A stretch of 64,000 nucleotides of DNA from Thalassotalea nanhaiensis (GTDB lineage: Bacteria; Pseudomonadota; Gammaproteobacteria; Enterobacterales; Alteromonadaceae). Position numbers and translations under genes: made by a program. Positions 14,465-58,655 of this stretch are shown piece by piece. Location of the stretch: contig NZ_CP134146.1 in NCBI RefSeq assembly GCF_031583575.1, positions 1,116,001-1,180,000 of the forward strand, in the 5' to 3' direction. The notes under the pieces are model-generated. The model was not told the origin of the DNA. It did no database searches and saw nothing but the letters and a program-made list of their open reading frames with translations. Each line of letters begins with the position of its first letter. Positions within the stretch are counted from its first letter, which is position 1.

Positions 14465-14481
14465 TTCAATATGTCTAAATT

Positions 14482-14507
14482 AAAAAAGCGCCTGTTGGCG
14501 CTTTTTT
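14482..14507 (+). terminator. Rho-independent terminator of ETF-QO gene
   Basis: AAAAAAGCGCC (14482-14492), loop TGTT, GGCGCTTTTTT (14497-14507), 18 bases after the stop. A-tract and T-tract on both sides allow bidirectional use. Confidence 0.92.
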
Positions 14508-14535
14508 ACTTCAAGGATGATGGAATGCAAATCGC

Positions 14536-14585
14536 CATGGACCGTTCCTACGCGTCCTGCGTTCTCGGCATATACAACGTCCATG
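14536..14585. repeat. Inverted repeat CATGGAC/GTCCATG
   Basis: CATGGAC (14536-14542) and GTCCATG (14579-14585) bracket a 36-base GC-richer core. The composition differs from the flanks, and the block lies between a terminator and a tandem heptamer, so it looks like a short intergenic repeat unit rather than part of a gene. Whether it is dispersed in the genome is unknown. Confidence 0.4.
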
Positions 14586-14623
14586 TTGAAAACGGTAATA
14601 GATTTGTACGTTCTAAATACTTA

Positions 14624-14666
14624 GAAACGAGAAACGAGAAACGAGAAACGAGAAACGAGAAACGAG
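14624..14666. repeat. Tandem heptamer (GAAACGA)x6
   Basis: Six perfect head-to-tail copies of GAAACGA occupy 14624-14665, followed by G. The array ends directly before the stop codon of the small membrane protein gene at 14667. Confidence 0.95.
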
Positions 14667-14975
14667 CTAGGAGTTTTCTCTTTCAAACTGACTTATAGCC
14701 TTATCTAAGTGCTGACCAATGAACACTAACGATAAGGGTCTCAGTACAATAAAATACCCTACCAAAACAAACACCAAAGGTATTAAAAAGTACCATGATT
14801 CAACATTAGCCAGCATAAAAAATGGTGGTATTAATATTGCCATTTTCAATAGATTTAACACAAACTTAGCTAATGGTGACAACTTAGCTGTAGCCAAATG
14901 AATAATTTGTTGGCGACTGCGAAAATCAAATGGTTGTAATTGTGGAAACTGATTTGAAGAAAAATAGAATTTCAT
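14667..14975 (-). CDS. Small two-helix membrane protein
   Basis: A 102-residue protein of unknown function. Residues 1-35 are polar (MKFYFSSNQFPQLQPFD and on); two hydrophobic segments follow, about 38-57 (FVLNLLKMAILIPPFFML) and 62-85 (WYFLIPLVFVLVGYFIVLRP), with a charged C-terminal tail (HLDKAISQFERENS). It lies alone between the ETF-QO terminator and ribH, in opposite direction. I do not recognise a named family with certainty. The stop codon touches the GAAACGA array. Confidence 0.7.
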   Translation of the reverse strand: MKFYFSSNQFPQLQPFDFRSRQQIIHLATAKLSPLAKFVLNLLKMAILIPPFFMLANVESWYFLIPLVFVLVGYFIVLRPLSLVFIGQHLDKAISQFERENS

Positions 14976-41942: not shown

Positions 41943-43577
41943 TTATTGTGGATTGATCGCTATTTCTATTTGTTGCGCTTGAATGGTTTTAGTTTGCAGC
42001 CTTGAAATTATCTTTAATAACTTACTACCTTGCCAGTTTCCTGTGTTGGCTGAGTAATAATTACGCTGTAATTCCGCTAATGCTTCATTGAAATCTACGC
42101 TATTAAGCTTTTTACTCACTTGCTCTAAATTAGCAAAGTGCTCGTTCGGATACAGATCTTTAGCCCATAAAGGTAATAAAGCAATCACTTGTTCGCCATT
42201 ATTTTGTGTACAAGCAGCCATTAATTTTAAATAGCTTTGTTTATCTTCGCTGGTGAATGTTGCTTTGTTAAAGCGTAGGTTGCCTTTCAACTTTGAAACA
42301 TATAACCAAGCTAATGCTGTCAGGAGCCAACCAGCTAAAAACAGCCATTGCAAAGTCGTGTTATGCTCAGTCACAATTTGCACTTCTGGCTGCATCGGTT
42401 GACTGAATGCAGGCGTGGCAGCTTGAACGCCATTGATGGTAACTGTTCTACCAGGAATAACGGTTTGTTCAAGTTTATTAAGCTTAGTATTCCACCAAGG
42501 CACAATTAAATCAGGCAAGGTATAGGTACCCGGTTTCGTTGGTACTATGGCAAATTCTTGTACCTTTTGGCTTATTAATAAACCGTTTTGTACGCCGCTT
42601 TGACTTTCAGCTTGGTCAGGATATATTTTTAAACCATCCGGCACTTCAAAGTTCAATTCTGGTAGTTGCTCTGCACTAAGTGCTGCTGCAGTTATCGTTA
42701 CTTTACGAGTGATTGGCTCGCCTAATTCAAATTCTGTGCCTTCAATGGGCCATTCATCTTCAATATTAATAATTTCGCTCGGTAGCCACTCTCCACTGTA
42801 ATTATCCGGGACTGGCTTCACCATAATATCTATTTCTTTACCGCGAATGCTAACAGGCTTGCCTCTGTCCATTCCTGAAAATAAAGAGCGCTTATTACTA
42901 ATGATAATTTCACCTTCAAAGGTCGAACTATGCAGCACAAATTTACCACTGGTTTGCGGTTTTACCGAGTAAATACGCTCAATAATTCGATAACGTTTAC
43001 CGTCGATAATTTGCGTATCTTCCTTATCTTGACCTATTTGCTTAATTTCTGCGCCTGTCATTTTCGGCTCAGTGAGTACGCCGCGTTTTAAGTTTACCGC
43101 TAAGTGCAAACGTACTTTTAAGGTAAATTGTTGCTGTACATATACGTCTTGCTCACTTACATCCGAGGTAATATATAAGTCTTTTTGCTGGCTGCTACCT
43201 TTTTCACTTTCTGCTAACACAACTAATGCAATTGGTTGGGTGTTTACTCCATCGATAGAAAGAGCAGGGATCACCACTTTGCCTTTTTTACGAGGAATAA
43301 GCAGAGTAGTCCACTGAGTTGTTCGGGTCATATCGAAGTTAACCATATTGGTTTGGCTGCTAACGGATGTGCCGCCCACAACAAAATCTTGTTGTAATAC
43401 GCTCGGGTCAAATGCATCGGCCGATACTGAATCATCGGCTACAATAGTCAGTACGATAGATTCATTAACAACTGCTGGATTCTTATCAATACTTGCGGTC
43501 ACGCTGGTTAATGCATTCGCCATAAATGTGGCAAATAGCGAAACTATAAAAACGCACTGTTTGATCGTTTTTACCAT
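41943..43577 (-). CDS. batD: BatD-family protein
   Basis: 544 residues. Signal peptide at the start (CVFIVSLFATFMANALT), long extracytoplasmic beta-rich region with the BatD pattern VTASIDKNPAVVNESIVLTI, a membrane helix near residue 410 (WLFLAGWLLTALAWLYV) and a cytoplasmic tail. Last gene of the MoxR-Bat operon, overlapping batB/C by 7 bases. The Bat proteins are inner-membrane assemblies linked to envelope stress and oxygen tolerance. Confidence 0.9.
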   Translation of the reverse strand: MVKTIKQCVFIVSLFATFMANALTSVTASIDKNPAVVNESIVLTIVADDSVSADAFDPSVLQQDFVVGGTSVSSQTNMVNFDMTRTTQWTTLLIPRKKGKVVIPALSIDGVNTQPIALVVLAESEKGSSQQKDLYITSDVSEQDVYVQQQFTLKVRLHLAVNLKRGVLTEPKMTGAEIKQIGQDKEDTQIIDGKRYRIIERIYSVKPQTSGKFVLHSSTFEGEIIISNKRSLFSGMDRGKPVSIRGKEIDIMVKPVPDNYSGEWLPSEIINIEDEWPIEGTEFELGEPITRKVTITAAALSAEQLPELNFEVPDGLKIYPDQAESQSGVQNGLLISQKVQEFAIVPTKPGTYTLPDLIVPWWNTKLNKLEQTVIPGRTVTINGVQAATPAFSQPMQPEVQIVTEHNTTLQWLFLAGWLLTALAWLYVSKLKGNLRFNKATFTSEDKQSYLKLMAACTQNNGEQVIALLPLWAKDLYPNEHFANLEQVSKKLNSVDFNEALAELQRNYYSANTGNWQGSKLLKIISRLQTKTIQAQQIEIAINPQ

Positions 43578-45511
43578 TTTTCTTTTACTCCAATACTGCT
43601 TCTGTTTTGACGACGCTTTTGATACTCCAGTTTCATTTTATTGCGTAGTAATAACTGGGGGTCGTCGGTAACTTTTCTTAGCATTTGTTCATGTTTTTGG
43701 TTTAATTCAGCATCTTCATTGCTGGCAGAGTCAACTACGCCAGCACTTTGTTCATCCTGTGCACTTTGTTGTTCATCTTGCTCTGCATTGTCAGCTTGAG
43801 CCGCAGCATTTTGTTCTTGTTCGGACTCATCTTGTTCAGCACTTTGTTGCTCATTGTCTTTACTTTGCTGCTCAGATTCTTGTTCGTTAGGGTTTTGATC
43901 GCCATTAGGGCTTTCTTGGCTTTGCGAGTCTTGCGATTGTTGATCTTGGTTTTCACCGTCTTGCTGATTTTGATCTTGCTGCTGTTGATCTTGGTTTTCA
44001 CCGTCTTGCTGATTTTGATCTTGGTTATTATCGTTGTCACCATTTTCACCAGATTGTTGCTGTTCAGATTGTTCCTGATTTTGCTCTTGATTGGAGTCGT
44101 CTGAGTTTTGCTCTTGGTTTGACTGGTCTTGTTGCTGTTCTTGTTGTTTTAGTTGCTCCACAAGGGCTTTGTTTATTGCCGCATCCTGATGGTCTGGGTT
44201 TTGAGTTAATACCTCATCGTAGGCGTTAATTGCGTCATCATATTGTTGCAGTTTCGCCAGAGCATTACCCTGGTTATAACGGGATTCAGTAGATTCAACT
44301 TGCTTAAATGCTTCTAATGCCTTTTCAAAGTCACCGGCTTTATAGTAGCTGCTGCCTTGCCAAAGTGGCTTTGAAAACTGCTTTGCAGCTTCTGCATATT
44401 GTTGCTTTTCAAAGTTTGATTGGGCTTGTTGATTTTTGGTTTGCCATAAATCGTCCCATAGGCTTGCTTCAGCCTTTGGTGTATGCAGTGAAGATGCAAT
44501 TACTAAACTTAATAAAACTGGAGTAAACAGTACTCCGCGGCGGAAGTAACCCAGCATTAAAGGTAGCGCGATTAATAATAAATACGGTCCCATCTCCTGC
44601 CATTGGTCGCCTAGGTTGTCTTGTTCATTCTGCATTTCTTTTTTTGCGTCAAGTGCTTTTAACTCACTTAGGTTTTCTAAGTCGCTGTCATCTGCGGTTA
44701 TTTGGCTAAACACTCCACCACTATTTTTGCTTATTCTGGCAAGTCGTGGTGCATTCATTTTAGGGATAACAATATTGCCCCCTCTATCTTTCATCAGTTC
44801 GCCATTAGCTAAGGTAATTGGTGCACCTTGCTCGCTTCCTACACCTAAGATATTTATGCGATGTGGATGCTCATTAGCAAAATCAGTAATATCACTAAGC
44901 TCATCTGAGCTTATGCCATCAGTTACCCAATAAATATCACCTTCTAGATGTCCCGCGTTTTGTAGCATTTCATTGGCAAGTATTAATGCCGGGTATGGGT
45001 TAGAGCCTAACTCAGGCATAATGCTCGGCGATAATGAAGGCAATAGTAGTTTGATGTTTTCTATATCGGCAGTAAGCGGGCTAATAATAAATGCATCACC
45101 AGCGTATGCGACTAACCCAATTTCGCCTTCATCAATTTTTTCAACTAAATCCATTGCTTTAAAGCGCGCCATCGTTAAACGGTTTGGCTTAATATCTGTT
45201 GCCATCATCGAAAATGACATGTCCATGATAACCACCGAACCACGTTCAACATCAAATACAGGTTGTGGGAGTTTTTGCCATGTAGGGCCAGCAAGGGCAA
45301 AAATAAATAATAAGCCAATCACTGATGCTGGGATCAGTGACACAGGTTTTTTATTTTCATTGCTGCTTAATAACATATTGGCTAAATGTTTTGGGATAAC
45401 ATGGTGCCAAGCGCTACTTGAAATTCTAATTTTTCTAAGTTGCCAAATAACCCAAACCAGCACAATAACGGCCAGTAACCATAAAGGGCGGATAAAATGA
45501 AATTCACTCAT
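43571..45511 (-). CDS. BatB/BatC fusion: VWA domain plus TPR and Gln-rich tail
   Basis: 646 residues. Two N-terminal helices, a von Willebrand A domain with a complete MIDAS start DMSFSMMA (DxSxS) near residue 95, a helix near 310-345, then TPR repeats (NQGNALAKLQQYDDAINAYDEVLTQNPDHQ in part) and a tail from about 460 to 600 composed of Gln, Asn, Asp, Glu and Ser. Where BatB and BatC are separate in some genomes, they are one protein here. ATG 45511 follows AGGAG. The tail contains an exact 45-base-period DNA repeat (43939-44024). Confidence 0.9.
   Translation of the reverse strand: MSEFHFIRPLWLLAVIVLVWVIWQLRKIRISSSAWHHVIPKHLANMLLSSNENKKPVSLIPASVIGLLFIFALAGPTWQKLPQPVFDVERGSVVIMDMSFSMMATDIKPNRLTMARFKAMDLVEKIDEGEIGLVAYAGDAFIISPLTADIENIKLLLPSLSPSIMPELGSNPYPALILANEMLQNAGHLEGDIYWVTDGISSDELSDITDFANEHPHRINILGVGSEQGAPITLANGELMKDRGGNIVIPKMNAPRLARISKNSGGVFSQITADDSDLENLSELKALDAKKEMQNEQDNLGDQWQEMGPYLLLIALPLMLGYFRRGVLFTPVLLSLVIASSLHTPKAEASLWDDLWQTKNQQAQSNFEKQQYAEAAKQFSKPLWQGSSYYKAGDFEKALEAFKQVESTESRYNQGNALAKLQQYDDAINAYDEVLTQNPDHQDAAINKALVEQLKQQEQQQDQSNQEQNSDDSNQEQNQEQSEQQQSGENGDNDNNQDQNQQDGENQDQQQQDQNQQDGENQDQQSQDSQSQESPNGDQNPNEQESEQQSKDNEQQSAEQDESEQEQNAAAQADNAEQDEQQSAQDEQSAGVVDSASNEDAELNQKHEQMLRKVTDDPQLLLRNKMKLEYQKRRQNRSSIGVKEKW
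43939..44024. repeat. In-frame direct repeat, 45-base period, in BatB/C tail
   Basis: The segment beginning GTTGATCTTGG at 43939 recurs at 43984, identical over about 40 bases. It encodes two copies of a Gln/Asp/Asn-rich 15-residue unit. A 45-base gain or loss would keep the frame. Confidence 0.85.
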
Positions 45512-53063: not shown

Positions 53064-53279
53064 ATGAGTCGTGTAGAGTTAAATATGTTGTTTGTTGTTG
53101 TTTCCTTACTATGTGCCGTTTTCTTTTATTGCCAAGCTCTACAGTCCGGTATGGGGCGTAAGCGTTGGGCTACGGCTGGCTTTGTACTAGGTCCATTAGT
53201 ATGGCCAATGTTCTGCATGGAGAAACGCATGAAAACATTTAAAAGGTTTGGTACTAAGTTTGGTATCTTCAACGCATAA
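53064..53279 (+). CDS. Small two-helix membrane protein
   Basis: 71 residues from MSRVELNMLF. Two hydrophobic segments, about 9-27 (LFVVVSLLCAVFFYCQAL) and 37-53 (WATAGFVLGPLVWPMF), followed by a strongly basic tail (EKRMKTFKRFGTKFG). The start is uncertain: an in-frame codon at 53034 would add ten residues, and neither has a good Shine-Dalgarno. No family recognised. Convergent with the small-protein locus on the other strand. Confidence 0.65.
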   Translation: MSRVELNMLFVVVSLLCAVFFYCQALQSGMGRKRWATAGFVLGPLVWPMFCMEKRMKTFKRFGTKFGIFNA

Positions 53280-53328: not shown

Positions 53329-53430
53329 TTATGAGAACCAGTTCGAGGCGCTCATTTCATACACTTCAATTCTTGTTGGTGCTTTAGTTACTTTCTTAGT
53401 GCTAAATATAGCAGTAAATACTCTTAACAT
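53329..53430 (-). CDS. Small protein B, 33 residues, IE-EMSA-W-S tail
   Basis: ATG at 53430 preceded by TGAGGTGATT, a good Shine-Dalgarno at 5-base spacing, and a TAA stop. The product is basic in its first half (LRVFTAIFSTKKVTKAPTR) and ends IEVYEMSASNWFS. The end aligns with that of the neighbouring 34-residue protein (IEIREMSANSWWS): 8 of 13 positions identical. The shared tail with a diverged front, plus both ribosome-binding sites, argues that these are real paralogous genes. Function unknown. No signal peptide or clear membrane helix. Confidence 0.7.
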   Translation of the reverse strand: MLRVFTAIFSTKKVTKAPTRIEVYEMSASNWFS

Positions 53431-53440
53431 AATCACCTCA

Positions 53441-53461
53441 AAGCCTTATCTATAAAGGCTT
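53441..53461 (-). promoter_or_regulatory. Hairpin between the two small genes
   Basis: AAGCCTT (53441-53447) and AAGGCTT (53455-53461) with a 7-base loop. It overlaps the stop codon of small protein A and abuts the Shine-Dalgarno of small protein B, so it may tune translation of B. It lacks a T-run. Confidence 0.45.
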
Positions 53462-53564
53462 ATGACCACCAGCTGTTTGCTGACATTTCACGAATTTCAA
53501 TGCTGTCTGCTACTTGCTTGGCTGTAGTTTTAGACGTAAATATTGTTTTAATCATTGCAATCAT
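53460..53564 (-). CDS. Small protein A, 34 residues, IE-EMSA-W-S tail
   Basis: ATG at 53564 is 8 bases after AGGAG. That Shine-Dalgarno overlaps the TAG stop of the upstream repeat-protein gene, so the two are probably translationally coupled. The product starts MIAMIKTIFTSKTTAKQVAD and ends SIEIREMSANSWWS before TAA. It is a paralogue of small protein B downstream. A second in-frame ATG at residue 4 (53555) would align better with the start of B. Family and function unknown. Confidence 0.7.
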   Translation of the reverse strand: MIAMIKTIFTSKTTAKQVADSIEIREMSANSWWS

Positions 53565-53575
53565 TGTCTTATCTC

Positions 53576-53866
53576 CTAGATGCGAACTTTCGTTGTGCCC
53601 ATAGGCTTGATACGAACTTTTGTTGTGCCCATAGGCTTGATACGAACTTTAGTTGTGCCCATAGGCTTGATGCGAACTTTCGTTGTACCCATAGGTTTGA
53701 TGCGAACTTTCGTTGTACCCATAGGCTTGATGCGAACTTTCGTTGTGCCCATAGGCTGAATGCGAACTTTCGTTGTGCCAGATTCTATAGGGTTGTTAAC
53801 AATAGGTGCATCCATCGATGGAGCACCGGTCGAAAGTAATACTGAAAAAATTAATGAACTAAGCAT
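53576..53866 (-). CDS. Repeat protein, seven GTTKVRI units, probably exported
   Basis: 96 residues. An N-terminal hydrophobic stretch (MLSSLIFSVLLSTGAPS) resembles a weak signal peptide without a basic start. After VNNPIES the rest is seven copies of GTTKVRI joined by KPM (QPM once), a 10-residue, 30-base period. The DNA repeats differ at Gly, Thr, Lys, Arg and Ile codons by synonymous changes only; the single amino-acid change is Lys to Gln in the first linker. AGGAAA precedes the ATG at 53866. The repeat region is strongly basic. I recognise no family. It heads a likely operon with small proteins A and B. Confidence 0.75.
   Translation of the reverse strand: MLSSLIFSVLLSTGAPSMDAPIVNNPIESGTTKVRIQPMGTTKVRIKPMGTTKVRIKPMGTTKVRIKPMGTTKVRIKPMGTTKVRIKPMGTTKVRI
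53579..53780. repeat. 30-base tandem repeat array
   Basis: Six full 30-base units and a partial seventh, within the minus-strand repeat-protein gene. Variation between units is confined to third codon positions of that gene apart from one base. Confidence 0.95.
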
Positions 53867-54070
53867 GGTATTTCCTATTTTTATTTTTGAGAATTTACAT
53901 ATAGGTATATTTAAGCTAATAGCATGCCAACTTTTATAAAAGTTAAAATAAAGTTTAAAAACTTGTTTTCGTTACGCTTTTATTTGTGAAGGGGGAATAA
54001 TAGTTTTTTCGTATTTTGTGACGAGAAATTTTTAAATTGAACAGTTGTCTAATGAACGGTGAAGTAGAAA

Positions 54071-54090
54071 ACCTTGCTTTTAAACAAGGT
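54071..54090 (-). terminator. Weak terminator after the GGDEF/EAL gene
   Basis: ACCTTG (54071-54076) and CAAGGT (54085-54090) with an 8-base loop; on the minus strand TTTTC follows. It lies about 30 bases beyond the stop of the large regulator gene. Confidence 0.4.
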
Positions 54091-54119
54091 CATTTAATGT
54101 CAATCATTTGAATTGAGAG

Positions 54120-57100
54120 TTAAATATTATTGTACGGTGTCGATTTATTGGTGATGATGTGGGAAAGCAAATAGCGGCCAAAATCTTCTTCAGCTAAAGG
54201 CTTAGAATATAAATAACCTTGCATTTGTTCACAATTGAGCGTTTTAAGGTATTTAAGTTGGCTTTCGGTTTCGACACCTTCTGCTACAACATCCATGCCA
54301 AGGTTATGGGCGATAGTTACAATAGTGGCAACCATGTTCCGGCCTTCTTCGGAATTTTCTATATCGTCAACAAACGCTTTATCAATTTTTAAGGTATTAA
54401 GCGGGAACTGTTTTAAATACGCAAGAGAGGAGTAACCTGTACCAAAGTCATCTAAAGATAAGTTTACCCCCATCTTTCTAATTTGATGCATAAGCTCTAT
54501 CGCTTCTTGCGGCGAGTTCATTACAGTACCTTCAGTGATCTCAAGTTCGAGATGTTTCGCTGGTAACTTGGTTTCCTCTAATATTTCTGCAATAACATTA
54601 ACTAAATTAGGCTGCCTAAATTGTACCGCTGAAAGGTTTACTGCTATTCGGCCTTTAAACATACCGTTATCTAACCATGCTTTAGTTGCTAAGCATGCTT
54701 TACGTAAAACTATTTCGCCAATCTCGATAATTTGTCCGGTTTCTTCTGAAATTGGAATAAATATATCAGGACGTATAATGCCTTTATTACCCGCCTCAAA
54801 ACGTACCAGAGCTTCCATGCCTTTTACTTTACCGCTGGCAACATCAATTTTAGGTTGATAAAACACTGAGAAAAGGTCTTCTTTTAAACCGTGACGTATT
54901 AAATTTTCTATCTGTAATCGTTTAACTGCTTGTTTGTTCATTGAATCGTTAAAGAATTGATAGGTATCACCACCTTTATCTTTTGCATGATACATAGCGG
55001 TATCGGCGTTCTTTAACAGCTCATGTGAATTTTCACCATCATCAGGGAACAACACTATGCCGATACTACAAGATAAAGATATTTCTTGTTGGCGAATATA
55101 GTAGGGCTCAACGATGGTATTTAATACTTCATCAGCAATAGATGTGATTTTATGAACATCGTTAGTGCCTTCAAGTATGAGTGCAAATTCATCGCCACCT
55201 AAACGGTAACAGGTGTCTTTTATATTCCCGATGGTTGCAATACGCTCGGTTACTTTACATAACAATACATCACCAATTTGATGGCCAAGAGAGTCGTTGA
55301 TTTTTTTAAAGTTATCTAAATCAAATACAAGCAATGCATGTTCAATATCTTGGCTAACTAACTGAGAATGATTCGCTTGGAAAAACGATCTATTAGGCAA
55401 GCCTGTTAATGTATCAGAGTTAGCCAGCTTACGTAATTCTGCTTCTGTTTCTTTACGTTTGGTAATATCTGAGAATACACCAACAAAATGCGATATTTTG
55501 TCGTTTTCATCGCGGATAATATCGATGGTGATATCAATCAAATACGAATCACCATTAGAGCGTTTACTTTCAATTTCGCCTTGCCAGGTGCCGTGTGACA
55601 TAAGGTTCTTTTTCAGGTTCTGTAAAAAGCTTTCAGGGTAAGAGTTAAAGGCTAACAGTTGCCCTAACGCTTCAGTTCTGGTTTGGCCTGTTATCGTTTG
55701 ATATGAAATATTACAATCGACCAATTTAAATTGATTGTCGTAAACCACTACTGCATCAGATATGTTTTCAATACATTTAGCAAAAAGTTTTAAGCTTTCT
55801 TCATTGGCTTTTATTTGACTGATATCTTTTAAGGTACCAGTCATACGCAATGGCGCATCATCCTCATCACGTTCTACAATCTTACCTCTATCAAGCACCC
55901 ATAACCAATTGTTGGTTTTATCTTTTACTCGATATGCGGCTTCATAATGCTCAGATTTTCCTTCTTTATGCTCAAGTAATAATTGCTTAACTCTTGGGTA
56001 ATCTTGTGGATGAATGTTACGGCGCTCTTCGCCGTCTTCACTCGTCTCTGAGCCTTCAAGAGGAAAATCTAATATCCCCCAAATGTTTGAACGAAACATT
56101 TGATTGGTTTTTAGGTTCCAATCCCACATTTCATCGCCAGAGCCCCATAAAGCTAGTTTTAATCGCTCTTCCGACTCTTTGATTTTTATATTGGTTTGTT
56201 CTTTATTTTGAGCTTGACGAATAAAGTAATAAATAATAAATAAACAACAAAGTATATATACAGCCCATGCTGTATTAGTTTTCCACCAAGGCGGCAAAAT
56301 TGTTATTTTAAAACCCTTTAGTTGTACATATTTATTAATAGTTGAGTCATAAGCTTCTAATAAAAAAGGGTAATCACCGGCAACGAGATTTGTGTAAGTT
56401 GCTCTTCTATTTTTATAATCAGTTTCAATCCAATTATGGTCTAAGCCAACTAGCTTATATCTATAAAGAACTTGCTCAGGCATACTCGAGTTTGGCGTTA
56501 AGAACTCCAAAGTGAAAGGGGATTGATCATATCTAAGTGTTATTTCATCTAGCGTTGCAAGCCGACTTGTAAGCAAATCTTGTTCAACAGAGTTCTTTGT
56601 TTTAGTTATTTTTACTTCTTTATTTGATATTCTAAGTTTCGTTAAAATTGGAGGTGAAAGTAATTGTGAATCTAGTTTTATATCCTCAGGAAAAAAACTA
56701 TTAAATCCATTGATTCCACCGAAAAACAATCGCCCTTGACTACTTTTTAGAGAGGAACCTTCCCAAAATTCATTAGATTGTAATCCATAACTAGAATCAA
56801 AATTAGAAATGGATTTTGTTATTGGGCTTATTTTACTAATACCTTTATTTGAGCTAATCCAGGCATCACCAGAATCGTCTAATAATAAGTTAGTTGTGAA
56901 GTTGTTTGCTAAACCAGAATTTTCGTTAAAATGAAAATATTCATTCGTTTTTTTATCTAATAATAGTAATCCCTTGTCCCAAAAACTGAACCAAATAAAA
57001 CCATTTTCTTCATTGATATAACTAACTTGGTTTTCTTCTAAAATTTTATTTTTAGGTAGGGTTAATTGTGAAAATGTTTCAGATTTTGGTATAAATTTAT

Positions 57101-58655
57101 AAATTTCACCTTGATTAGTGTTAATCCAAACTTCGTCATTTTTAGTGGCTGATATAGTATAAATAAGATGGTTCTCATCATTTAATTTATAAGAGGTAAG
57201 TCTTTTCTTTTTAATGTTATATCTGTGTAACGATGAGTTTTGTGAACCGAACCAAATTTCATTGTCTAAAGCTAAAAAGTCAATTCTATCATTAAGAACT
57301 TTATCCAAAGAGTTGAAAGAGTCATCCTTGGTTAATGAGTTATTGGATATGTCAAAATAGATTAATTCATTCTCATAAGTAATTAACCAAAGGTTATTTT
57401 TTTCATCAGGTAAAAATGTATTTAACCTGCCATTTATTTCTATTGGTGCTTTCGATATTTCATTTGTATATGGATTTATCGAATATAGCCCGTTGAACTC
57501 GGTATAAATCCATATATCACCATTTGGAAGTTCGGCAAATCCTAATACATTTTTTTTGTTTTTAAGGTCGCTAGATAAATAATGCGGGAAGAGAGAATAG
57601 GAAGAGCTATATTTATTTACACCACTCGAAATAGTCCCTACCCAAGTTGTATTCGACTTATCCTTAAAAATTGAATAGACAAACTTCATCTCTAATGCGG
57701 TTGAATCTAATTGAGAGATATTCTTTTCTGCTAATGTATCTTCGATAAGGTTATATGTATATAAACCACTTTCGGTTCCAATTAATAATTCGTAATCGCT
57801 TACTTTGTTAATGCTTCTTGTTCTGTTAGCCATGCTGCTAACACCATAATTTTCAGCTAATATTTTCTTTTTAAGTTTATAGTTTTTGTCAATTATGAAA
57901 ATGCCATTATCAGTGGCTACCCAAAAATTATTTTCTATTTCTTTAATTTCAAAGATTCCACTAGCATCGATGTTAAGATGCCATTTATTTTTTCCATTCA
58001 GTGGTGAGGTGAAATTAAATTCATCATTAATAATATAAAGGCCATTTTCATAAGTTCCTAACCAATAATAATTATTATCGTCTTGGAATATTGATTTGAT
58101 TTCTTTTAGGTTTTTTGTGTTTTCTCTGAAGTTTATTTTTGAAAAAGTTTCTGTTTGCTTGTTAAGTTTGTGTAGGCTATCACCGGTAGAAATAAATATA
58201 TCTTTTTTATTATCTTCGAAAATACTCCAAATAGCCTGATCTTTAAATTTTGAATATGTATTAATAAACTCATTTGTTTTAGGGTTATATTTACTAAGTC
58301 CACTCTGAGTTCCAACCCATAAACCATTTGAACTATCTACAAATACAACTCTTACAAAGTTGTTTAATAAGGAGTTCGGGTTATCAATTTCATTTCTATA
58401 ATAAGAAAATTCATAACCATCATATCGATTCAGGCCATCTTGGGTGGCAAGCCAAATAAAGCCTTCTTGGTCTTGTGCTATAGAATATACACTACTTTGC
58501 GAAAGTCCTTGTTCAATAGATAATTGTTGAAACTTGATCGGTGTTTGTGAGGATGAATGCGCTGAGAGCGAAAAAATGGCAAGCAGAGTTACCATGATTA
58601 ATTGGAGTATGTTTATAGCATTAACGTTTATCTTGTTATTTTTATTAAACTGCAC
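54120..58655 (-). CDS. Propeller-sensor diguanylate cyclase/phosphodiesterase
   Basis: 1511 residues. Signal peptide (LIMVTLLAIFSLSAHS), then a periplasmic region of two-component-regulator propeller repeats (IAQDQEGFIWLATQDGLNRYDG; SSNGLWVGTQSGLSKY) to about residue 690, a Y_Y_Y domain (YRYKLVGLDHNWIETDY) to 775, a helix near 785-800 (AVYILCCLFIIYYFI), two PAS/PAC domains, GGDEF (LGGDEFALI, about 1152) and EAL (EALVRF about 1279, LDDFGTGYSS). Both output motifs are intact, so synthesis and breakdown of cyclic di-GMP are both possible. No histidine kinase is present. The start is a GTG at 58655. Confidence 0.92.
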   Translation of the reverse strand: MQFNKNNKINVNAINILQLIMVTLLAIFSLSAHSSSQTPIKFQQLSIEQGLSQSSVYSIAQDQEGFIWLATQDGLNRYDGYEFSYYRNEIDNPNSLLNNFVRVVFVDSSNGLWVGTQSGLSKYNPKTNEFINTYSKFKDQAIWSIFEDNKKDIFISTGDSLHKLNKQTETFSKINFRENTKNLKEIKSIFQDDNNYYWLGTYENGLYIINDEFNFTSPLNGKNKWHLNIDASGIFEIKEIENNFWVATDNGIFIIDKNYKLKKKILAENYGVSSMANRTRSINKVSDYELLIGTESGLYTYNLIEDTLAEKNISQLDSTALEMKFVYSIFKDKSNTTWVGTISSGVNKYSSSYSLFPHYLSSDLKNKKNVLGFAELPNGDIWIYTEFNGLYSINPYTNEISKAPIEINGRLNTFLPDEKNNLWLITYENELIYFDISNNSLTKDDSFNSLDKVLNDRIDFLALDNEIWFGSQNSSLHRYNIKKKRLTSYKLNDENHLIYTISATKNDEVWINTNQGEIYKFIPKSETFSQLTLPKNKILEENQVSYINEENGFIWFSFWDKGLLLLDKKTNEYFHFNENSGLANNFTTNLLLDDSGDAWISSNKGISKISPITKSISNFDSSYGLQSNEFWEGSSLKSSQGRLFFGGINGFNSFFPEDIKLDSQLLSPPILTKLRISNKEVKITKTKNSVEQDLLTSRLATLDEITLRYDQSPFTLEFLTPNSSMPEQVLYRYKLVGLDHNWIETDYKNRRATYTNLVAGDYPFLLEAYDSTINKYVQLKGFKITILPPWWKTNTAWAVYILCCLFIIYYFIRQAQNKEQTNIKIKESEERLKLALWGSGDEMWDWNLKTNQMFRSNIWGILDFPLEGSETSEDGEERRNIHPQDYPRVKQLLLEHKEGKSEHYEAAYRVKDKTNNWLWVLDRGKIVERDEDDAPLRMTGTLKDISQIKANEESLKLFAKCIENISDAVVVYDNQFKLVDCNISYQTITGQTRTEALGQLLAFNSYPESFLQNLKKNLMSHGTWQGEIESKRSNGDSYLIDITIDIIRDENDKISHFVGVFSDITKRKETEAELRKLANSDTLTGLPNRSFFQANHSQLVSQDIEHALLVFDLDNFKKINDSLGHQIGDVLLCKVTERIATIGNIKDTCYRLGGDEFALILEGTNDVHKITSIADEVLNTIVEPYYIRQQEISLSCSIGIVLFPDDGENSHELLKNADTAMYHAKDKGGDTYQFFNDSMNKQAVKRLQIENLIRHGLKEDLFSVFYQPKIDVASGKVKGMEALVRFEAGNKGIIRPDIFIPISEETGQIIEIGEIVLRKACLATKAWLDNGMFKGRIAVNLSAVQFRQPNLVNVIAEILEETKLPAKHLELEITEGTVMNSPQEAIELMHQIRKMGVNLSLDDFGTGYSSLAYLKQFPLNTLKIDKAFVDDIENSEEGRNMVATIVTIAHNLGMDVVAEGVETESQLKYLKTLNCEQMQGYLYSKPLAEEDFGRYLLSHIITNKSTPYNNI

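Follow-up and report, generated by a model that had tools for sequence, protein, structure and literature searches.

The 64,000-nucleotide window of Thalassotalea nanhaiensis DNA analysed here (contig NZ_CP134146.1, positions 1,116,001 to 1,180,000) contains a small gene which encodes a hydrophobic leader followed by seven copies of a basic heptapeptide, GTTKVRI, and which lies directly after a gene encoding a Reg_prop GGDEF-EAL protein, the candidate receptor. As judged from sequence comparisons, the gene probably encodes a secreted precursor of short peptides which would act on the periplasmic ectodomain of the adjacent receptor and tune c-di-GMP. Homologues are carried by marine bacteria related to Thalassotalea and Colwellia, and more tentatively they may represent a class of cell-to-cell pheromones in Gram-negative marine bacteria, in which the species' own peptide is read by a dedicated propeller receptor with a c-di-GMP output.

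Table 1. Features of the precursor-receptor locus in the window.
Feature	Coordinates	Strand	Description
Precursor gene	53576..53866	-	96 aa, ATG start; leader, linker and seven 7-aa cores with KPM/QPM linkers
Leader and linker, residues 1-29 (MLSSLIFSVLLSTGAPSMDAPIVNNPIES)	53780..53866	-	Hydrophobic N-terminus kept across genera
Repeat array, GTTKVRI x7 spaced by KPM/QPM	53579..53779	-	Tandem Repeats Finder and codon comparison
Receptor candidate, 1,511 aa, GTG start	54120..58655	-	Pfam: Reg_prop propellers, Y_Y_Y, PAS, GGDEF, EAL
Predicted periplasmic ectodomain, residues 36-795	56271..58550	-	Modelled fold matches BT4663 periplasmic domain
GGDEF (1078-1229) and EAL (1253-1486) output domains	54198..55424	-	Pfam E 3e-42 and 1e-67
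WWx small protein 1, 34 aa (...SIEIREMSANSWWS)	53460..53564	-	11 nt past precursor stop
WWx small protein 2, 33 aa from ATG (...RIEVYEMSASNWFS)	53329..53430	-	Paralogue of WWx protein 1

The repeat array and its homologues in the genus

The precursor, with no charged residue among its first 16, starts with the hydrophobic sequence MLSSLIFSVLLSTGAP and a short linker. Behind MLSSLIFSVLLSTGAPSMDAPIVNNPIES, the seven GTTKVRI units follow on a 30-base period, six of them with KPM or QPM behind and the seventh with the stop codon immediately 3' of it. Tandem Repeats Finder reported the array with a period of 30, 6.7 copies, 93% matches and a score of 339, the highest of its eight rows in the window. 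The codons vary between units (GGC/GGT, ACG/ACT/ACA in the third Thr, CGC/CGT, ATC/ATT, and AAG/AAA in the linker), and the sole amino acid change is a Q for K in the first linker; the sequence-only reading had described this pattern, and codon by codon its description is accurate. In the coding frame, pairwise comparisons of the six complete units add up to 35 synonymous and 5 non-synonymous differences, and in the other five frames to 2.5/37.5, 0/35, 5/35, 17/13 and 0/25. That reading had also stated that the same differences alter residues on the other strand, which is so in two reverse frames, where non-synonymous differences dominate; the third is mixed. A plus-strand product from the ORFs over the array (53555-53839, 53580-53759 and 53760-53939) was rejected on the same two of three frames. 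A junk or recent slippage array is ruled out by the synonymous variation and the conservation; the earlier view that the minus-strand protein is under selection and not recent junk thus agrees with the 35 versus 5 differences and with the homologues in the genus.

No convincing Pfam, NCBIfam or PHROGs family was found for the precursors and WWx proteins tested. Only one array (G013) passes curated cut-offs, to DUF7239 and DUF5001, through short matches to its repeated unit, and PHROGs, which has no cut-offs, matched the window protein to five unknown families at E values of 0.0009-0.04. Rfam showed no match at gathering scores in 14 loci. Between 53000 and 54250, promoter-like sites (3 versus 4.1 in shuffles) and terminator-like sites (2 versus 1.2, sd 1.1) were no better than chance. 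A terminator-like hairpin, GACCTTGTTTAAAAGCAAGGTT, is located at 54070-54091, between the receptor and precursor genes; it would argue for a separate precursor promoter, although the scan is not above chance.

Two other repeats were observed in the window. A perfect 7-base tandem repeat, AGAAACG x6.3, lies at 14623-14666 inside a 75-codon ORF (14471-14698), behind a gene whose product we take to resemble an electron-transfer-flavoprotein dehydrogenase; length variation of this heptamer could shift the frame. The other, at 43841-44129, consists of Gln/Asn/Asp-rich repeats in the gene of a 646-aa membrane protein, 43571-45511 (-), presumably similar to a VWA/TPR protein.

The genus was searched with an alignment of the homologues found with the window protein, taking E 0.01 or better as a match, in 15 genomes including its own. 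A precursor match was found in 12 of them, that is, in 11 of 14 congeners, and the absence of homologues from close relatives, named by the sequence-only reading as an argument against a maintained gene, is therefore not observed. In ten of these eleven congeners the precursor is located directly after the receptor; in the eleventh (G007), whose assembly yielded no receptor, the array is cut by the start of the contig. Three genomes gave no match, G001, G003 (78% complete) and G011 (87% complete), and no full-length receptor was found in the assemblies of G003 and G011. Leaders are alike among congeners but the repeated unit differs, examples being GSTRIRI, GGSKIRI, ASNKIRI (10 copies), GDNRIRI (11), TVNTRIRI (14), SSNRIRI (10) and RDSTVRI (9). 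In G004 another gene replaces fadJ as neighbour, and the receptor, the precursor and a WWx protein (..YEMPADNWWR) are still together. The cleanest case of co-loss is G001, which has lost the ectodomain and the peptide gene together: its receptor, still beside fadJ, shows 70% identity over residues 770-1501, has no propeller and only about 105 residues ahead of the membrane segment, the precursor is absent from the genome according to the profile search, and neither a precursor nor a WWx ORF is found at the receptor locus.

The sequence-only reading is thus upheld in part. Selection, the basic unit, the leader and the multicopy precursor are supported, and its idea of a repeated or processed peptide coincides with what appears the best reading, a multicopy precursor of short peptides. 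It missed that the unit is lineage-specific and that the conserved parts are the leader, the architecture, the position directly after the Reg_prop GGDEF-EAL receptor and the WWx proteins behind; the functional reading rests on these.

Core variation and linkage to the receptor

Precursor extraction yielded 79 entries, reduced to 71 distinct ones by dropping two masked-base entries (one genome twice) and six exact duplicates. L238, L248, G382, the other-family precursors and the last-fetched family loci are outside the 71 and the statistics, and of the G335/G022/G369-group genomes (the G386, G329, G358 and G126 set) only the precursors of G386 and G329 enter. A 9-residue hydropathy above 1.6 near the start is shown by 71/71 precursors, and the first six residues bear no net charge in 46 and a negative one in three. 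The core 8-mers have a net charge of +2 or more in 62 of the 71. The leader is kept, and the repeated cores across species include GTTKVRI, ASNKIRI, GTRRNQVRI, ARRNVRM, AKGRGVKV and GEKRRGERI. Some species show one C-terminal core only: 23/71 precursors are single-copy, 13 of them ending in [VI]R[IVLF] and the rest otherwise (GNGIGF, FGLFSWF, KTIKIP), so that those ten offer no independent definition of the core. Among receptors of the clade to which the window belongs, G316, G353, G382 and L246 have single-copy precursors that end in GRGNRGVRI, GRRAVRI or GRRSVRI. A cysteine after residue 20 was found in one of the 71 (G380).

Forty-six arrays have at least three copies, 268 in all, of which 263 are exact and five inexact to the array 5-mer (exact-only selection would bias pN/pS); the set includes the arrays that are truncated at contig ends (G017, G340). 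Core identity averages 0.943 within arrays versus 0.343 between species (best register, 1,035 pairs). Across the 46 arrays, core codons differ at 38.5% of synonymous versus 4.2% of non-synonymous sites, which gives an in-array pN/pS of 0.109 (bootstrap 0.070-0.156) at a pS of 0.385. Twelve related species (Colwellia or Cognaticolwellia records plus G021) have a core of the form GT[RK][RK]xx[VI]RI, with N, D, G or T at position 5, and all 62 pattern-fitting copies in them bear their own species' 9-mer; codons for the same amino acid differ in 29% of comparisons within arrays and in 48% between species. The largely synonymous variation together with the shared 9-mer indicates that each copy is held to the same peptide and that arrays turn over together, and the comparison of the twelve species shows that the peptide changes between close species. 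This leaves an evolutionary puzzle, in that a whole array switches to a new core while its copies keep different synonymous codons. The decayed last copies of L232 and L234 fall outside the pattern. These two precursors and that of L238, which has one good core only, end in a decayed copy (..NEISI, ..NEVSI) and possibly represent array contraction in progress.

Copies follow each other at spacings of 7 to 21 aa. Spacers of at least four residues are acidic on average (-1.74) and negative in 24 of 28 arrays, their ends depending on the 5-mer chosen and being off by a few residues in some arrays (e.g. G331, G340 and G017). Several arrays mix abutting and spaced copies, as in L237 (GTRRNQVRI-GTRRNQVRI-DLEKLDINAT-GTRRNQVRI), which delimits the cores with no added assumption and shows that a spacer is dispensable. 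A stop codon directly after a core was found in 35 of the 44 arrays not cut by contig ends. By eye, no dibasic site recurs regularly between copies: NQEQLNTVEA and KPM have none, and basic pairs occur inside the cores.

Linkage was scored with a rule which asks for an ATG ORF of 40-260 aa on the same strand, starting no more than 700 nt downstream of the receptor and showing the leader pattern. The rule was positive at 60 of 62 full-length family receptor loci, which are not independent of the leader pattern because it was written after the first precursors were seen; the negatives are G302 and G016. It was positive at 0/21 propeller-less receptors (a class set by ORF length and alignment start), 0/20 paralogues (29-32% identity) and 1/62 antisense strands. 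Tandem-repeat ORFs gave 38/62, 0/21, 1/20 and 2/62 in the same four sets. Only five of the 21 propeller-less genes were seen beside fadJ (G001, G325, G388, G384 and G360), so the rest of the contrast may be between clades and not loss at one locus. Among eight family receptors independent of the pattern, the same leader pattern found a precursor for six (start limit of 850 nt from the stretch start); of the other two, G328 has a tandem precursor (SKPGGVIR x5) and G381 one recognised by eye behind extra upstream ATGs. Together with G382, G386, G358, G126 and these eight, 72 of 74 full-length family receptors have a precursor. The 19 named loci with a full-length receptor, found through the WWx gene and partly repeating the G genomes, all have one, 17 by pattern (one with masked bases) and L238 and L248 by eye. 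G335 shows an array with no pattern-type leader, the array of G022 is cut by the contig end, and the contig of G369 ends before any precursor could be visible. In the two precursor-less full-length receptors, L125 (G016) and L189 (G302), the tail ..KPSPIRPAVRIAKR/S resembles the cores of others (..AVRI); this could be chance or a tethered core.

A second clade of receptors (38-43% identity, 25 loci) shows the same arrangement, 23 of 25 being followed by a protein of 44-70 aa with a leader like MLKAYAxAL. Twenty of these 23 precursors are single-copy, with frequent core-like ends (WKPGSVRI, WKPRSVRI, KVGSVRF, RPGTIRI) and others such as GNGIGF and FGLFSWF; the remaining three have tandem copies, ALKPRGSIRT x3 (G203), GVRAGTVRF x2 (G018) and KKGWKRGGVIRLP x2 (G320). 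No WWx gene was found in the 25 loci.

Outside the family, 55 genomes have a match at E 1e-200 or better, and 31 receptors were hand-picked from them; leader-type small ORFs were recognised by eye in 23 of the 31 stretches. Family f20 shows them in 4/4 (HIPIRF, RVIIRY, RIQIRI, RIPVRF), with WWx in all four, and f16 in 5/5 (SVWRKIDI and the like), as three spaced diverged copies, one being cut by the contig end, with no WWx seen. In f6 they are found in 9/9, with the cores GVPNIKV, GIPNVKL, GHPYVKF, ALPAIKV, ALPWVKV, APNIKV, GSPHIRY, GAPNVRW and GLPNVKF, a longest precursor of about 410 aa, and WWx in at least four (within about 800 nt). All five f15 loci (L312 (G061), L290, L291, L311 and L313) have ORFs of 40-48 aa and WWx, with no clear core except in G061, whose two terminal copies of IEDQVGL are acidic, unlike the basic cores elsewhere. 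The single f4 receptor gave 0/1 (ambiguous), no precursor was found for the seven receptors of f7, and one further stretch, behind a paralogue, showed none. In the first set of stretches, a test for tandem repeats recovered the arrays of f20 and f6 (8/8), but it did not detect those of f16 or f15. According to these sequences, several families of the order share the putative cassette, which occurs with one copy of the core or with more.

The candidate receptor and the neighbouring genes

The GGDEF and EAL signature motifs were found in the receptor translation, and the transmembrane segment was placed by eye. An AlphaFold2 model of residues 1-800 (20 sequences, mean pLDDT 84.8) was compared with Foldseek, and the nearest structure was 4a2l, the periplasmic domain of BT4663 (TM up to 0.80/0.85, 28% identity). 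The PDB entry of BT4663 is titled as a heparin/heparan sulphate sensor, and the fold therefore fits a periplasmic ligand and says nothing of a peptide. The receptor is predicted to face the periplasm.

Between close species, ectodomains differ by about 22-42% and cytoplasmic parts by 2-5%. The ratio of ectodomain to cytoplasmic divergence is 4-15 in receptor pairs with less than 10% cytoplasmic divergence versus 1.9-3.3 in paralogue pairs; however, absolute ectodomain divergence is about equal in both, and the high ratio is due to a slow cytoplasmic part. Accelerated ectodomain change or diversifying selection was dropped for this reason. Core distance correlates with ectodomain distance when the cytoplasmic part is the clock (partial Mantel r 0.53, p 0.0005, from the closer set of 63 of 69 receptors; r 0.49 with all 69), but the correlation vanishes with the paralogue ectodomain as clock (r 0.05-0.10, p 0.14-0.32, 16 genomes). 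It is therefore no evidence for coevolution of core and ectodomain and was dropped as such; coevolution is neither shown nor excluded.

The two WWx proteins of the window end in SANSWWS and SASNWFS, respectively, and one or two such proteins of about 34 aa, with the common C-terminal motif E(M/V)xAxxWW, are found behind congener precursors. At E 0.01 or better, WWx was detected in 31 of 118 family genomes, in 28 of which it lies, by coordinates, less than 1 kb from the receptor orthologue; in the other three (G340, G017 and G365) receptor and WWx are on separate contigs. In 28 loci measured, WWx begins 8-17 nt behind the precursor stop in 23 and 26-35 nt behind it in four, with one 1-base overlap, and these short gaps suggest that precursor and WWx are on one transcript. 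Between the WWx genes and fadJ, a small membrane protein (FYCQALQSGMGRKRWATAGFVLGP..WPMF..) is encoded on the opposite strand at 53085-53279 (+). Its relatives occupy the same place in other genera; a pattern search found this type of protein in three of eight stretches, two of which have no WWx (L123 and L127), and did not find it in G001.

Proposed role, alternatives and related systems

In the mechanism that we favour, the hydrophobic leader would take the precursor to the periplasm or beyond, and proteases would cut it into copies of one short, usually basic peptide, which in the window would lie around GTTKVRI. Linkers or mostly acidic spacers would separate the copies. The target of the peptide would be the ectodomain, with its propellers and Y_Y_Y domain, of the receptor whose gene lies immediately upstream, and the peptide would shift, in one direction or the other, the balance between c-di-GMP synthesis by GGDEF and c-di-GMP breakdown by EAL. 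Since the core is constant within a species and different between species, it may be a peptide pheromone by which a species or lineage signals to itself, with the copy number setting the dose. WWx proteins would be accessory (export, maturation or control) in a lineage-dependent manner. In the more tentative reading of a cell-to-cell pheromone, kin density or identity might directly set the switch between biofilm and motility.

The linkage and the co-loss would look the same if the precursor stayed uncut in the periplasm and docked on the ectodomain of its own cell, where it would inhibit the receptor or act as a co-sensor and gain avidity from its repeats, no signal passing between cells; cores identical within an array are also what repeated binding sites would show. 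We regard this as unlikely, because the single-copy precursors, with their frequent [VI]R[IVLF] ends, are more easily explained by a cleaved peptide than by a repeat protein, as are the stop codons right after a core and the spacers present or absent within one array, and because fast core change is unexpected for a purely internal partner. A precursor of a bacteriocin or an antimicrobial peptide, for which WWx would provide immunity or help, with a core diverging by an arms race and a receptor which only regulates, would account for the basic cores, the multicopy release, the fast divergence and the adjacent small protein. This is very unlikely, however, given that precursors are missing where the receptor has no ectodomain (0/21). 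Furthermore, WWx is found in 29 of the 62 full-length receptor loci (with a strict pattern that misses diverged forms) versus 60 for the precursor, and in none of the second clade; its absence from many precursor loci rules it out as an obligate partner for immunity. The WWx proteins are in addition conserved and not matched to the core, and by eye no pronounced amphipathic face is visible in GTRKDQVRI and similar cores.

A repeat protein beside a c-di-GMP enzyme might instead have a structural role, or belong to the matrix or the surface, with the neighbouring gene tying its synthesis to c-di-GMP; its basic strands, in which hydrophobic residues alternate (RIRI), might be able to assemble. 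Nevertheless, the single-copy precursors, the change of unit between species and the variable spacings agree poorly with a conserved assembly, and no structural repeat family was matched, the hits of G013 being short unit matches; we consider this explanation highly improbable. That the array is only a by-product, in a short ORF under weak constraint which persists through its position at the receptor and gains repeats by slippage, scarcely deserves credit: the repeats do change fast in length and unit, but the in-array pN/pS, the hydrophobic leader of every precursor and the presence at nearly all full-length receptor loci stand against it.

The proposed secreted precursor shares traits with several known systems. 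Multi-core RiPPs have a leader plus repeated cores; here, in contrast, the cores share no obvious modifiable residue, and no RiPP-type modification enzyme was found in the stretch from receptor to fadJ, either in the window or at the eleven listed loci of congeners, although such an enzyme could be encoded elsewhere in the genome. Fungal alpha-factor and other Kex2-processed repeat proteins combine a signal leader, several identical short cores, spacers and divergence between species, but the window system is bacterial, no dibasic site is regular between its copies (by eye), and its receptor is not a GPCR. The Bacteroides hybrid two-component sensor BT4663 (PDB 4a2l/4a2m) resembles the receptor in the modelled propeller and Y_Y_Y ectodomain fold; it differs in its titled ligand and its hybrid two-component output, and Pfam shows PAS-GGDEF-EAL here and no histidine kinase or DNA-binding output.

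RRNPPA systems of Bacillota (Rap-Phr, PlcR-PapR, arbitrium AimR-AimP) also have adjacent genes for a receptor and a small precursor, a C-terminal variable core and repeated copies; their receptors are cytoplasmic TPR proteins, and an oligopeptide permease imports their peptides. A small putative precursor with leader and variable core beside the receptor appears likewise at the 60 of 62 loci, with hydrophobic starts throughout. In contrast, the receptor here is a membrane propeller GGDEF-EAL protein, the hosts are Gram-negative and WWx proteins are present; Pfam of the neighbour shows Reg_prop, Y_Y_Y, PAS, GGDEF and EAL and no cytoplasmic TPR domain. Because receptor fold, compartment and output differ, the window cassette is not an RRNPPA member. 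For multicopy Phr propeptides of Bacillota, PMC11343458 reports up to eight copies of the same pheromone, versus up to 14 here in the arrays counted (G002) and more in f6. Unlike Agr, the window has no AgrB-like ORF between receptor and fadJ, a cysteine for a thiolactone is found in 1/71 precursors, and the predicted output is c-di-GMP turnover, not a histidine kinase. Agr peptides are strain-specific. As with the autoinducing peptides described in PMC13220807, a peptide would be read by a membrane receptor, an action which is here predicted.

Section 7 of that 2026 review presents peptide signals as a Gram-positive paradigm (PMC13220807). No description of the locus was found among the literature matches listed, a scope which leaves out most subscription papers and bioRxiv preprints. 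The widespread gene pair matches no curated family searched and, from its sequences, appears to bear the marks of a peptide-signal system in Gram-negative bacteria: multicopy precursors that look exported, cores particular to each species, and a membrane receptor which combines domains for making and for breaking down c-di-GMP. If this is true, the pair would connect the recognition of kin, genetically and directly, with the decision of marine bacteria to form a biofilm; orphan propeller sensors would gain a class of ligands, and specificity could be tested on about 70 pairs of peptide and receptor.
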